From Actinomycetota bacterium (GTDB lineage Bacteria; Actinomycetota; Acidimicrobiia; Acidimicrobiales; Ilumatobacteraceae), in assembly GCA_963169215.1 (NCBI GenBank), contig CAUJEE010000003.1, forward strand, positions 1 to 43,659: a DNA stretch of 43,659 bases, given 5' to 3'. The notes below the pieces were generated by a model that was not told where the DNA came from, searched no databases, and worked only from the letters and a program-made list of their open reading frames with translations. Below are positions 887 through 5,653 of the stretch, in pieces; the stretch's first letter is position 1; the number at the start of each line of letters is the position of its first letter. The position numbers were made by a program, and so were the translations under genes.

Positions 887-2386
887 ATGACCCGCACCTA
901 CCTCACCACCCCGATCTACTACGTCACGGCCAAGCCCCACCTGGGCCACGCCTACACCACCATCGTCGGCGACGCACTCGCTCGCTGGCACCGCTTGCTG
1001 GGCAACGACGTGCATTACCTCACCGGCACCGACGAGCACGGCCAAAAGGTGCAGGACTACGCCGACGCGGCGGGCAAGAGCCCGCAGGAGTTCGTCGACG
1101 AGATCGCCCCGCTCTACGTGGATGCGTGGCGCAAGCTGGGCATCAGCAACGACGACTTCATCCGCACCACCGAGCCGCGCCACAAAGCCGGAGTGGTCGA
1201 GCTGCTGCAGCGCTGCTACGACGCGGGCGACATCGAACTCGACGTGTACAAGGGCAAGTACTGCGTGGCCTGCGAGGAGTACTACACCGACGACGAACTC
1301 GACCCCGGCGACCTGTGCAAGATCCACAAGCGCCCGGTGGAGTACTTCGAGGAGGAGAACTACTTCTTCCGCCTCAGCAGGTATCAAGACCGACTCCTGC
1401 ACTGGTACGCCGCGCACCCCGGCGCGATCCAGCCCGAATTCCGCGGCAACGAGGCTCTCGGCCTGATCCGCGGCGGCCTCCGCGACTTCAGCGTCAGCCG
1501 CACCAGCCTGAAGTGGGGCATCCCCCTCCCGTGGGATCCCAAGCATGTCGCCTACGTGTGGTTCGACGCGCTGGCCAACTACATCACCGCCGTCGGCTTC
1601 GGCAGCGACGACGAGCAGTTCCGCAGCTGGTGGCCGGGCGTGCACCTGATCGGCAAGGACATCGTCCGCCACCACTGCGTCTACTGGCCGGCGATGCTGC
1701 TCAGCGCGGGCCTCGAACCGCCTGCCGGCTGGGCGGTGGGCGGCTGGCTGCTGGTGGGCGGCGAGAAGATGTCGAAGACGTCGGGCAACGTGGTGAACCC
1801 GCTCGACCTCGTCGACGACATCGGCCTCGACGGGTTTCGCTACTACCTGCTCGCCGAAACCCCCTACGGGCAGGACGGCGACTTCACCTACGAAGGCCTG
1901 GTCGCGCGCTACAACAGCGACCTCGCCAACAACCTCGGCAACCTGTTGTCGCGTGTCGCCACCGTGGTGGGCAGCAAGTGCGGCGGCGTGGGCCCCGCGC
2001 CGCGCGCCGACTCGCCCCTCGCCGCGGCGGCCGCCGCCGCGTGGGAGGGAACGGCCGAGGGGTGGGCCAGCTACCAACCGAGCCGGGCACTCGATGCCAC
2101 ATGGCAGCTCATCCGCGCCACCAACGCCCACCTCGAAGCCAACGAACCGTGGAAGGCCGAGCCCGGCCCGGCGGTGGATGCGGTGCTCGGCGATGCGCTG
2201 GAGGCGCTGCGCATCGTCGCCATCCTCGCCTCGCCGGCGGTGCCCGACACCTGCCAGCAGGTGTGGCAGCGCATCGGCCTCGCCGGCGCGGTGAGCGACC
2301 AACGCCTGCCTGCCGCGGCCACGTGGGGCGGCTATCCGGGCGACACCACCGTCGTCAAGGGCACCCCCCTGTTCCCCCGCCGCTGA
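887..2386 (+). CDS. metG: Methionyl-tRNA synthetase
   Basis: Charges tRNA-Met with methionine in the cytoplasm (class I aminoacyl-tRNA synthetase). The HIGH-type signature reads HLGHAYT (about residues 18-24) and the KMSKS loop reads KMSKT (about residue 293). A single zinc knuckle is visible as CVAC followed by CKIH, the arrangement known from short MetRS enzymes such as that of Thermus. At 499 aa it ends after the helical anticodon-binding domain and has no C-terminal EMAP/Trbp111-like dimerisation domain, as in many actinobacterial enzymes. The ATG has AAAGGA 8 bases upstream. The 60-base gap to tatD is C/A-rich and has no evident hairpin, so the two may be cotranscribed. The identification is secure. 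Confidence 0.97.
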   Translation: MTRTYLTTPIYYVTAKPHLGHAYTTIVGDALARWHRLLGNDVHYLTGTDEHGQKVQDYADAAGKSPQEFVDEIAPLYVDAWRKLGISNDDFIRTTEPRHKAGVVELLQRCYDAGDIELDVYKGKYCVACEEYYTDDELDPGDLCKIHKRPVEYFEEENYFFRLSRYQDRLLHWYAAHPGAIQPEFRGNEALGLIRGGLRDFSVSRTSLKWGIPLPWDPKHVAYVWFDALANYITAVGFGSDDEQFRSWWPGVHLIGKDIVRHHCVYWPAMLLSAGLEPPAGWAVGGWLLVGGEKMSKTSGNVVNPLDLVDDIGLDGFRYYLLAETPYGQDGDFTYEGLVARYNSDLANNLGNLLSRVATVVGSKCGGVGPAPRADSPLAAAAAAAWEGTAEGWASYQPSRALDATWQLIRATNAHLEANEPWKAEPGPAVDAVLGDALEALRIVAILASPAVPDTCQQVWQRIGLAGAVSDQRLPAAATWGGYPGDTTVVKGTPLFPRR

Positions 2387-2446: not shown

Positions 2447-3214
2447 ATGACTTCCCAGCCGTACATCGATTCGCATTGCCACCTCTACGAAAAGGGGGGC
2501 ATGACCGTCGACGAGATCGTCGCCCAGGCGCGCGACGCGGGCGTCACCGGCATGATCACCATCGGCTGCGACGCGGCCTCCACCGCCGAGGCGATCGAGA
2601 TGGCCACCCGCTTCGACGGTGTGTTCGCCACCGTCGGCCTGCACCCGCACGAGGCCCGCCTGGGGGTCGACACGATCGTTCCCCTGCTCGACGATCCGCA
2701 CGTCGTCGCCATCGGCGAGGCAGGCCTCGACTACCACTACGACCACTCGCCCCGCGACACCCAACGTGAAGTGTTCGCGGCCCAGATCCAGCTGGCCCAT
2801 CAGCGCGGCCTGCCACTGATCGTGCACACTCGCGAGGCATGGGATGACACGTTCGACATCCTCCGCGCCGAAGGTGTGCCCGAGCGCACCGTGTTCCACT
2901 GCTTCACCGGCGAAACGAACGAGGCGCGCACCTGCCTCGACATGGGCGCGTGGCTCAGTTTCAGCGGCATCGTCACCTTCGCCAACGCCACCGCGCTGCA
3001 CGACGCAGCACGCCTGTGTCCCACCGACCGGATGCTGGCCGAGACCGACAGCCCGTACCTCGCGCCAGTTCCCCACCGCGGCTCCACCAACCGGCCGGCG
3101 TTCGTCACCCACGTAGTGGCTGCGCTGGCTGTGCTGCGCGACCAACCCTTGGACGAGGTGCGCGCGGCAACCGTCGCCAACGCCTGCCTTGCCTTTCCAG
3201 GGGTACGTCCCTAG
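2447..3214 (+). CDS. tatD: TatD-family metal-dependent hydrolase
   Basis: TatD-family enzymes are metal-dependent deoxyribonucleases of the amidohydrolase (TIM-barrel) fold. The N-terminal metal motif DSHCHL, the 'GEAGLDYHYDHS' segment, HTREA and the C-terminal 'ETDSPYLAP' are all present, and the length (255 aa) is normal. In actinobacteria tatD commonly precedes rpfB-rsmA-ispE; here the next gene is a different small wall-type protein. The stop codon TAG is part of a TAGCCT box that may be the -10 of that next gene. Whether the cellular role is DNA repair, RNA turnover or D-amino-acid processing cannot be told from sequence. Confidence 0.93.
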   Translation: MTSQPYIDSHCHLYEKGGMTVDEIVAQARDAGVTGMITIGCDAASTAEAIEMATRFDGVFATVGLHPHEARLGVDTIVPLLDDPHVVAIGEAGLDYHYDHSPRDTQREVFAAQIQLAHQRGLPLIVHTREAWDDTFDILRAEGVPERTVFHCFTGETNEARTCLDMGAWLSFSGIVTFANATALHDAARLCPTDRMLAETDSPYLAPVPHRGSTNRPAFVTHVVAALAVLRDQPLDEVRAATVANACLAFPGVRP

Positions 3215-3227
3215 CCTTTTACTGGCC

Positions 3228-3719
3228 ATGTACCACACCGAGCGCCGCCGCGTGATCTTCGCGTCGATCGTCACCGCGATCGCCATCCCCGCGCTGTGGA
3301 TCATGAGCGGCGACGACCAGTCGAGCGAGTCCGCCGGTGGCAGCACGATCCCCACTGCGCCACCGACCACCATCTACAAACCGGAGACGCCCGTGTTCGT
3401 CGGCGGTGAGGATGGCACGAGCGAAGCGAGCGGAGACGCGAGCATCGCCACCGCGCCTGCCCCCAACGCCAACAACTTCCGCGGCAAGGCCTCCTACCGT
3501 CGCTATCCCGACACGCTCGACCGACCCTGCACCGCACCACAGGCGCCCGATGCGACTCTGTTGACGGTGATCAACGTCAACAACGGTCAGTTCACCACGT
3601 GCACCAACATCCGCACGTTCACCCCACCAGCGGGCGTCGACATCGTCATCCACACCGACGTGTTCTCCGAGGTGGGCGACATCGCCGACTCGCCGATCGA
3701 CGTGCGCGTCACCTGGTAG
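3228..3719 (+). CDS. Membrane-anchored RlpA-like (double-psi beta-barrel-like) protein in the rpfB position
   Basis: The 163-aa product starts with a basic stretch and one hydrophobic segment ('RRRVIFASIVTAIAIPALW'), a signal anchor or uncleaved signal. A low-complexity Ser/Thr/Pro/Asp linker follows to about residue 80, then a small domain. The domain begins 'GKASYRRYP' and continues with 'CTAPQAPDATLLTVINVNNG', 'FTTCTN', a VDIVIHTDVF strand and a final 'IDVRVTW'. This order resembles the RlpA barrel (GxASWY, TAAH..LP.GT.V.V.N..NG, ID.S, V.V.W), but the usual His and Asp residues are not evident, so catalysis is doubtful. I chose ATG 3228, not the upstream GTG of the ORF track, which would overlap tatD. 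The gene touches rsmA (TAGTG overlap). Its position matches the resuscitation-promoting factor gene of other actinobacteria. The family call is tentative. Confidence 0.6.
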   Translation: MYHTERRRVIFASIVTAIAIPALWIMSGDDQSSESAGGSTIPTAPPTTIYKPETPVFVGGEDGTSEASGDASIATAPAPNANNFRGKASYRRYPDTLDRPCTAPQAPDATLLTVINVNNGQFTTCTNIRTFTPPAGVDIVIHTDVFSEVGDIADSPIDVRVTW

Positions 3720-4558
3720 TGCACAACCACGCGGCCATCAGCGAGTTGCTGCGCAGGGGCGGATTGAGCCCGCGTCGCGACCTCGGTCAGAACTTCGTCG
3801 TCGACGCCAACACCGTGCGACGCATCGCCCGCCTGGCCGAGATCGGCCCCGGCGACAAGGTGGTGGAGGTCGGTGCCGGGCTCGGCTCGCTCACGCTCGC
3901 ACTGGCCGAGACCGGAGCGCGGGTGCTGGCCGTCGAGGTAGACGCCGGCGCGGTGCCCCTACTGCGCGAAGTGACGGCCGGGCTGGCAGCAGTGACCGTG
4001 GTCGAGGCCGACGCGATGAAGGTCGATTGGCCGGCGTTGCTCTCCGAGCACGACGATGCCGACGCCGATCGCGGCTGGGTGCTGGTGGCCAATCTGCCGT
4101 ACAACGTCGCCACGCCACTGGTGTGCGACCTGCTCGACGGCCTGCCGCAGATCGAGCGCATGCTGGTGATGGTGCAGCGTGAGGCCGCCGAGCGCTTCTG
4201 TGCCGCGCCGCGCACACCGCAGTACGGGGCGGTGACGGTGAAGGTCGCCTACTGGGCCACGGCGCGCATCGTCGGGCAGGTGCCGGCGAGCGTGTTCATA
4301 CCCCGCCCCAACGTCGAGTCGGCGCTGGCCGACATCCGCCGCCGCCCCCGGCCGGCAAGCGAGGCCCCGGCGGCGACGCTGTTCCCGCTGGTGCGCGCCG
4401 CATTCGGCCAGCGACGCAAGATGCTGCGCCGTTCGCTGGCCGAGACGGTCGCTGCGGAGGTGTTCGACGTGGCGCAGATCGAAAGCACCCGGCGACCCGA
4501 AGAGCTGACCGTCGAAGAGTGGGGCCGACTGGCCTTGGCGTGGAGTGCGGCCCGATGA
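3719..4558 (+). CDS. rsmA: 16S rRNA (adenine1518-N6/adenine1519-N6)-dimethyltransferase
   Basis: RsmA (KsgA) dimethylates two adjacent adenines in the 3'-terminal hairpin of 16S rRNA late in small-subunit assembly. The N-terminal 'RDLGQNFVVD' is the family signature, 'VVEVGAGLGSLT' is the SAM-binding loop, and 'NLPYN' is catalytic motif IV. The ORF-track start at 3599 lies inside the preceding gene. The GTG at 3719, overlapping that gene's TAG by one base, gives a 279-aa protein of normal length and N-terminus. It overlaps ispE by ATGA at its end, implying translational coupling through rsmA-ispE. Confidence 0.96.
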   Translation: MHNHAAISELLRRGGLSPRRDLGQNFVVDANTVRRIARLAEIGPGDKVVEVGAGLGSLTLALAETGARVLAVEVDAGAVPLLREVTAGLAAVTVVEADAMKVDWPALLSEHDDADADRGWVLVANLPYNVATPLVCDLLDGLPQIERMLVMVQREAAERFCAAPRTPQYGAVTVKVAYWATARIVGQVPASVFIPRPNVESALADIRRRPRPASEAPAATLFPLVRAAFGQRRKMLRRSLAETVAAEVFDVAQIESTRRPEELTVEEWGRLALAWSAAR

Positions 4559-5301
4559 ACCTCACCGTTCGCGCCCCGGCCAAGCTCACCCTCTCGCTGC
4601 GCATCACCGGCGTGCGCGACGACGGCTACCACCTGATCGATGCCGAGATGGTGACGCTCGAGTTGGCCGACACGCTCACCATCGACCCTGCCGGCGATGC
4701 GCTCGCCGTCGACGGCCCCTACGCCTCCGGCATACCGCTCGACGACCGCAACCTGGTGGCCAGGGCGCTGGCCGCCGCCGGGCGGCGGGCGGGGGTGCGC
4801 GTGCACAAGACCATCCCCCACGGCGGAGGCCTGGGCGGGGGCAGCGCCGACGCGGCCGCGGTGTTGCGCTGGGCCGGATGGAGCGGCACCGCCGACGAGT
4901 TGCAGGCCGCGGCGCGCCTCGGGGCCGATGTGCCGTTCTGCCTGATCGGCGGGCGCGCCCGGGTGCGCGGCATCGGCGAGTCGGTCGAGTCCCTGCCGCT
5001 CGTCGCCGACGAGATCACGCTGGTGATCCCACCACTGGCGGTCGACACTGCGGCCGCCTACCGCGCCTGGGACTCACTCGGCGGGCCGACCGGCGCAGGG
5101 GTCAACGACCTCGAACCGGCAGCCCTCGTGGTCGAGCCACGCCTCGGCCTATGGCGCGATCGCATCCGCGAGGCGGCGGGCGAGCCACCGACGCTCGCCG
5201 GCAGCGGGTCAACCTGGTTCGTGCGCGGTCATCGCGACATCGCCGCCGCGCTGGCCGGGGCGACCGTGGTGCATACGCGCACCGACCGCCCGCAGCAGTA
5301 G
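4555..5301 (+). CDS. ispE: 4-diphosphocytidyl-2-C-methyl-D-erythritol kinase
   Basis: IspE phosphorylates CDP-methylerythritol in the MEP isoprenoid pathway. It is a GHMP kinase: 'APAKLTLSLRI' is motif 1 and 'PHGGGLGGGSADAAA' is the glycine-rich ATP loop; 'LAGSGSTWF' is motif 3. I use the ATG at 4555, which overlaps the rsmA stop (ATGA); the ORF-track start at 4519 would lie inside rsmA. At 248 aa it is shorter than the usual 280-320 aa, with the C-terminal part compact, but the motifs are intact. The stop codon lies in the loop of a predicted stem-loop. Confidence 0.95.
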   Translation: MNLTVRAPAKLTLSLRITGVRDDGYHLIDAEMVTLELADTLTIDPAGDALAVDGPYASGIPLDDRNLVARALAAAGRRAGVRVHKTIPHGGGLGGGSADAAAVLRWAGWSGTADELQAAARLGADVPFCLIGGRARVRGIGESVESLPLVADEITLVIPPLAVDTAAAYRAWDSLGGPTGAGVNDLEPAALVVEPRLGLWRDRIREAAGEPPTLAGSGSTWFVRGHRDIAAALAGATVVHTRTDRPQQ

Positions 5302-5505: not shown

Positions 5506-5576
5506 TCCGGGGTCGTTCAATGGTAGGACTGCGGGTTTTGGTCCCGTCTATAGGGGTTCGAATCCTCTCCCCGGAA
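5506..5576 (+). tRNA. tRNA-Gln (anticodon UUG)
   Basis: The cloverleaf was folded by hand. Acceptor TCCGGGG pairs with CCCCGGA, followed by discriminator A. The D stem is GTTC/GGAC. The anticodon stem is GCGGG/CCCGT with loop TTTTGGT, so the anticodon is TTG. The T stem is AGGGG/CCTCT-type pairing with loop TTCGAAT. The 3' CCA is not encoded. TATCGT at 5487-5492 is a possible -10. Confidence 0.97.
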
Positions 5577-5653
5577 CTCACCGCCTGCACCCGCTGCCGG
5601 CGCCCGCAGCCGCCGACACCACCCGACACCGTGCGTCCCGTCGGCCGACGCGC

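Follow-up and report, generated by a model that had tools for sequence, protein, structure and literature searches.

The tatD-rsmA locus of the host genome

The window, the whole stretch of 43,659 nucleotides that we analysed, comes from an incomplete assembly (2.78 Mb) of a member of the Ilumatobacteraceae, class Acidimicrobiia. Near its start lies the gene order metG-tatD-X-rsmA-ispE, in which X, here the slot gene, encodes a protein of 163 amino acids (Table 1). This order was common to the loci of the host family that we examined; the exceptions were loci cut by contig ends. The slot gene begins with an ATG 13 nt downstream of the tatD stop, and its TAG stop overlaps the GTG of rsmA (TAGTG). 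Overlaps of this kind suggest that the slot gene may be co-translated with rsmA and ispE. Scans for promoters and terminators between 700 and 5600 found nothing above chance. RpfB (DUF348-G5-Rpf) has in common with the slot protein the slot itself, the overlap with ksgA/rsmA and ispE as the next gene, and co-transcription of rpfB-ksgA-ispE has been shown in Mycobacterium tuberculosis (PMC6009663).

Table 1. Genes, protein regions and key residues of the slot locus (window coordinates)
Feature	Coordinates	Strand	Basis
metG, conserved upstream neighbour	887..2386	+	ORF; gene order in family loci
tatD, upstream flank of the slot	2447..3214	+	ORF; neighbour conserved in family loci
Slot gene, anchored pseudo-DPBB, 163 aa	3228..3719	+	ORF; homologues in family genomes; alignment A2 (50 sequences)
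Predicted N-terminal anchor, residues 3-26: RRR followed by a Pro-containing transmembrane helix	3234..3305	+	AlphaFold helix; resembles slot-encoded Rpf anchors of the order
Disordered linker, Thr/Pro/Ser-rich, residues 27-82	3306..3473	+	Low pLDDT; no secondary structure
Predicted C-terminal double-psi beta-barrel, residues 83-163	3474..3716	+	AlphaFold, Foldseek, hhalign
Cys101, invariant; probable disulfide with Cys125	3528..3530	+	C in 50/50 family members and 21/21 other slot DPBBs
Ala103, at catalytic His position	3534..3536	+	His in 0/50 family members, 9/21 other slot DPBBs
Cys125, invariant	3600..3602	+	C in 50/50 and 21/21
Arg129, at catalytic Asp (DRGP) position	3612..3614	+	Asp in 0/50 family members, 21/21 other slot DPBBs
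D-A-P motif, family-specific (window: Asp154-Ser155-Pro156)	3687..3695	+	P156 in 50/50, D154 in 43/50
rsmA (ksgA), GTG start overlapping slot gene stop	3719..4558	+	TAGTG overlap; translation
ispE, ATG overlapping rsmA stop (ATGA)	4555..5301	+	Sequence; ORF
tRNA-Gln (ttg), downstream of ispE	5506-5577

A protein search recovered slot gene homologues from 180/201 genomes of the host family, in 24/27 genera, and the slot held the pseudo-DPBB in 50/50 same-family loci examined. With this spread the gene is no chance occurrence. In the 16 genomes without a match, rsmA was undetectable in 13 and partial in 2, and the slot gene is in place as a divergent copy in G007. Since 13/16 also lack a detectable rsmA, absence of the slot gene appears to be mostly an assembly matter (probable gaps), and we rejected true loss in most of these genomes. 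The G007 protein (L185) has the same architecture and was missed by the protein search. The slot genes L103, L105, L112, L113, L115, L119, L120 and L123 lie in MAG records titled Bifidobacterium breve, Ferrithrix thermotolerans DSM 19514 or Acidimicrobium ferrooxidans DSM 10331; these titles look wrong.

Over the last 80 residues, dN/dS between close pairs was 0.012-0.139 (Nei-Gojobori), a value biased downward because the pairs were selected for protein identity. At 93-97% protein identity, their synonymous divergence nevertheless spanned 0.2 to more than 1. The slot gene has no internal stops. Even with the bias from pair choice, these values argue strongly for purifying selection on the domain.

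The C-terminal barrel and its active-site positions

The preliminary description had placed between tatD and rsmA a membrane-anchored 163-residue protein with a last domain resembling the RlpA barrel. The ORF is real, the AlphaFold model has an N-terminal helix at residues 3-26, and the same model gives a double-psi beta-barrel (DPBB) at the C-terminus. The helix is a predicted membrane anchor. The first Cys is residue 101, so the protein has no lipobox.

Is this simply an unknown protein? Scans of the single 163-residue sequence against Pfam and NCBIfam gave no match, including to DUF348, G5, Rpf (PF06737), 3D, SPOR and DPBB_1; relatives L174 and L184, the Pfam control for DUF348/G5, do match. 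Only 1/50 family members reached Pfam DPBB_1 (PF03330), with E 0.095, whereas slot proteins of other families of the order and class, found with the family profile, do match it. The "unknown protein" label was overturned by profile-profile comparison and the AlphaFold model. An hhalign comparison of 50 host-family sequences (alignment A2) with 21 slot DPBB domains of other families (A3) scored 99.0% (E 5.8e-18, 77 columns), and the modelled barrel has a pLDDT of 94-97 from residue 81 on (about 95 for the domain). In Foldseek, the best PDB matches of the model were a loosenin (9ce9) and the RlpA-like PA4485 (4avr), then expansins; the papain inhibitor 5ntb was also among the structure matches. 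TM-scores to PDB barrels were modest (TMt 0.63-0.69); the control L141, an intact slot relative, reaches 0.76, and its top match is 4avr (E 1.2e-7). We conclude that the last ~80 residues are, by profile and by model, a DPBB.

To locate the catalytic positions we aligned the family with 4avr and with intact slot DPBBs. From work on the Pseudomonas aeruginosa protein, the RlpA catalytic pair is presumably one His and one Asp, and the spacing of 26 residues fits. It had been proposed that the usual His and Asp are missing here, and indeed neither occurs in any of the 50 family members. At the DRGP Asp position the family has L, F, N, Y, S, V and others, with no conserved acid or His as a substitute. 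The IIDLS motif has likewise lost its Asp (0/50 in the family versus 21/21 in other slot DPBBs); the window protein has Val there in the joint alignment. The family-wide loss of the RlpA-type His and Asp is real. With the loop of the catalytic Asp remodelled, the former substrate groove may have gone as well, which counts against the role proposed below.

Other positions have been kept. Cys101 and Cys125, the sole Cys residues of the window protein, probably form a disulfide. Asn127, Thr143 and Asp154-Ala-Pro156 are conserved only in the host family; other slot DPBBs read x-G-V where the host family has D-A-P. The conserved polar Asn116 and Asn119 are part of a TN-x-x-NG turn that intact relatives also have. 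The slot protein is like RlpA/DPBB_1 proteins such as PA4485 in its barrel fold, in this turn and in profile kinship by way of the slot DPBBs, but it differs in having no catalytic His/Asp, no SPOR domain and no lipobox, and it falls below the Pfam threshold.

Occupants of the slot and their history

We inspected what lies between tatD and rsmA in about 70 Acidimicrobiia genomes, counting a gap of <160 nt as an empty slot; f1 is the host family, and f2, f3 and so on are the other families in the genome search. The preliminary description had taken rpfB to be the usual occupant. That holds for part of the class; elsewhere the slot is empty or holds a DPBB. True RpfB (DUF348-G5-Rpf) occupies it in f36 and f41 by Pfam and in f38 by eye plus an Rpf match, and a short anchor-Rpf protein does so in six of the sampled families that share the host's order (f3, f6, f12, f15, f18 and f19). 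The slot is empty in f5, f9, f11, f13, f14, f16, f17, f26, f28-f31, f33, f34, f35, f37, f40, f42, f45 and f46, and also in two f8 genomes and one f2 genome. One further f8 genome (L142, G343) encodes an anchor and a Thr-rich linker with no recognisable wall domain.

The DPBB occupants are themselves diverse. DUF348-G5-DPBB proteins occur in f27, f32 and f50 (Pfam) and in f43 and f48 (by eye), and f39 has a slot DPBB with no Pfam G5. PASTA-DPBB or linker-DPBB proteins with the Asp kept and the His missing are found in f4, and short anchor-DPBB proteins with the His in f7, f20 and f10, Asp having become Glu in f10; f2 has Asn for His. Catalytically intact slot relatives, all of them Pfam DPBB_1, are L141 (f7), L157 (f20), L054 (f27), L056 (f50) and L052 (f32). 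These other Acidimicrobiia proteins share with the window protein the slot, the barrel and the cysteine pair. They differ in their active-site positions (Asp kept in 21/21, His in 9/21) and in that many carry DUF348/G5 or PASTA domains. The f4 proteins (L055, L058, L129-L137), with Thr, Ser or Ala at the catalytic His, represent a second, partial active-site loss. The f10 protein L146 (G312) keeps CAH and has NERGP for DRGP.

Which came first around the host family, DPBB or Rpf? In a tree of TatD plus RsmA (SH-aLRT supports from a short search, with weak deep branches), the host family was monophyletic (99), and 21/22 of its rows also grouped in a TatD-only tree. Its sister group (96) comprises f20, f10 and f7, with short anchor-DPBB proteins, and one clade of Rpf families (98). 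The DPBB family f4 branches outside host family and sister group, and f19 (Rpf) is placed elsewhere. DPBB is likely the ancestral slot state around the host family, being the more parsimonious one on the TatD plus RsmA tree, with Rpf a probable newcomer in the sister clade. Given the position of f19 and the weak deep branches, the polarity from DPBB to Rpf is likely, not proven. A tree of the DPBB domain itself, at 79 columns, was too short to place the root of the host family.

RpfB and YabE are the classical occupants of the tatD-ksgA slot, which also supplied the first example of domain displacement between phyla: a displacement of the C-terminal domain between the two proteins has been described there, and is known to be non-orthologous for YabE/SpsB of Firmicutes (DUF348-G5-Sps/3D; PMC1084345). 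The Sps domain resembles the lytic transglycosylase MltA and keeps three aspartates, whereas the slot barrel is RlpA-type, short, anchored and without the active-site residues. The slot protein is a conserved, Pfam-invisible pseudo-DPBB, a possible case of domain displacement and then domain inactivation at the tatD-ksgA locus, and it defines a Pfam-invisible protein family of common freshwater actinobacteria. A literature search on Rpf or the tatD-rsmA slot in Acidimicrobiia found nothing beyond one review. This one class shows nearly the full range of slot states (empty, G5-Rpf, anchor-Rpf, G5-DPBB, PASTA-DPBB, short DPBB and family-wide inactive DPBB). It is a natural series for finding out what is required at the locus: an activity that cuts the wall, a domain that binds it, or merely an anchored wall protein made with RsmA.

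Proposed role of the slot protein

We give a probability of about two in three to the following reading of the sequences and models: the slot protein is a membrane-anchored pseudo-lytic-transglycosylase, a non-lytic wall binder, and a non-catalytic descendant of a DPBB resident in the slot, not a recently imported rlpA. Descent from a resident would follow from the intact and partly intact DPBBs found in the same slot across the class. As His and Asp are missing from an RlpA-like barrel, a non-enzymatic wall-binding role is likeliest, and non-lytic binding best explains why an anchored barrel with no active site is so strictly conserved. By kinship, the barrel's ligand may be peptidoglycan. 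Expansins and loosenins, which are likewise DPBB proteins, loosen walls without hydrolysis; they act on plant and fungal wall polysaccharides and have a polysaccharide-binding surface with a conserved Asp.

In such a role, the helix would fix the slot protein in the cytoplasmic membrane and the flexible linker would carry the barrel outward into the wall, where, without any cutting, it would grip glycan strands or a partner protein of the wall. This gripping could help to place or restrain wall growth, and the rsmA overlap might tie the dose of the slot protein to ribosome maturation, as in the mycobacterial rpfB-ksgA-ispE operon. A bolder version, in which a wall cutter was converted family-wide into a non-cutting sensor or brake translated in step with RsmA, strikes us as unlikely; if true, the rpfB locus would link the state of the wall to that of the ribosome and involve no lytic activity.

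Perhaps the barrel has left glycan altogether and now interacts with proteins instead, holding or regulating a synthase or a different wall enzyme? The loss of the catalytic loop, the gain of Asn127, Thr143 and Asp154-Ala-Pro156 and the very low dN/dS would all fit. DPBB relatives that act on proteins exist, the papain inhibitor being one of the matches, and RpfB itself acts in a complex with RipA (PMC4255298). However, no obvious partner gene is adjacent, and the slot relatives look like wall enzymes, some with PASTA or G5 domains. We regard this possibility as doubtful.

The preliminary description had further suggested that one wall-remodelling protein replaced another, or that a non-enzymatic wall-binding protein did so. 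The RlpA-like barrel in the rpfB slot stands, as does non-enzymatic wall binding as the likeliest role; the replacement of RpfB does not provide the best history. It would require that RpfB was lost and that an RlpA-like barrel, which later decayed, took over its place or that of its C-terminal domain. Consistent with this, rpfB occupies the slot in many actinobacteria (PMC6009663), and six other families of the order have Rpf there, although no G5 or Rpf protein was found in the slot of the 50 same-family loci. Rpf is also rare in the host family (14/81 genomes, mostly weak matches), compared with 139/247 genomes in the class sample. Could these genes be hidden RpfB? This was rejected for the four best family matches, which have no tatD or rsmA nearby. 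The slot protein lacks DUF348, G5 and Rpf and its C-terminal fold is unrelated to that of RpfB, but its anchor resembles those of slot-encoded Rpf proteins of the order. An HMM of the family anchor (first 30 residues, ~20 compared) scored 7/11 of the latter at 10-22.8 bits, against <=8.8 bits for ten non-slot Rpf anchors and about 2 bits for shuffles (Mann-Whitney p 0.002). This likeness suggests one gene whose C-terminal domain may have been exchanged. By score, the host family's anchor is unlike those of the intact DPBB proteins in f7, f10 and f20, which complicates a simple story of vertical descent.

Against replacement, f4, f2, f7, f10 and f20, as well as six families of the class outside the order, already have a DPBB in the slot. 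The order's Rpf proteins form mostly one nested clade, so an Rpf ancestor needs at least three separate Rpf-to-DPBB changes. No second DPBB gene was found as a possible donor, since DPBB_1 proteins occurred in 0/60 host-family genomes. Descent from a slot DPBB is more parsimonious and would have Rpf arrive later, in the sister clade, which reverses the proposed direction; we consider replacement improbable.

The slot protein might still cut glycan by way of other residues, as fold and position are retained and the conserved polar Asn116 and Asn119 remain. But those two sit in the turn shared with intact relatives, the Asp position is variable with no acid or His taking over, and the IIDLS Asp is gone too; continued enzymatic activity therefore seems very improbable. 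That the gene is decaying on its way out could be imagined from its lost active site, the empty slots of many families and the anchor and linker left in L142, but this is contradicted by a dN/dS of about 0.01-0.14, invariant cysteines, presence in 180/201 genomes and the lack of internal stops, and can practically be dismissed.

A search of the window's genome, an incomplete assembly, for Rpf domains found none. The genome does have MltG and two SLT-domain matches, so lytic transglycosylases are not lacking there. The two SLT matches (L228 and L229) lie ~1 kb apart (G000:C97:9877-11209) and are weak but above the cut-off.
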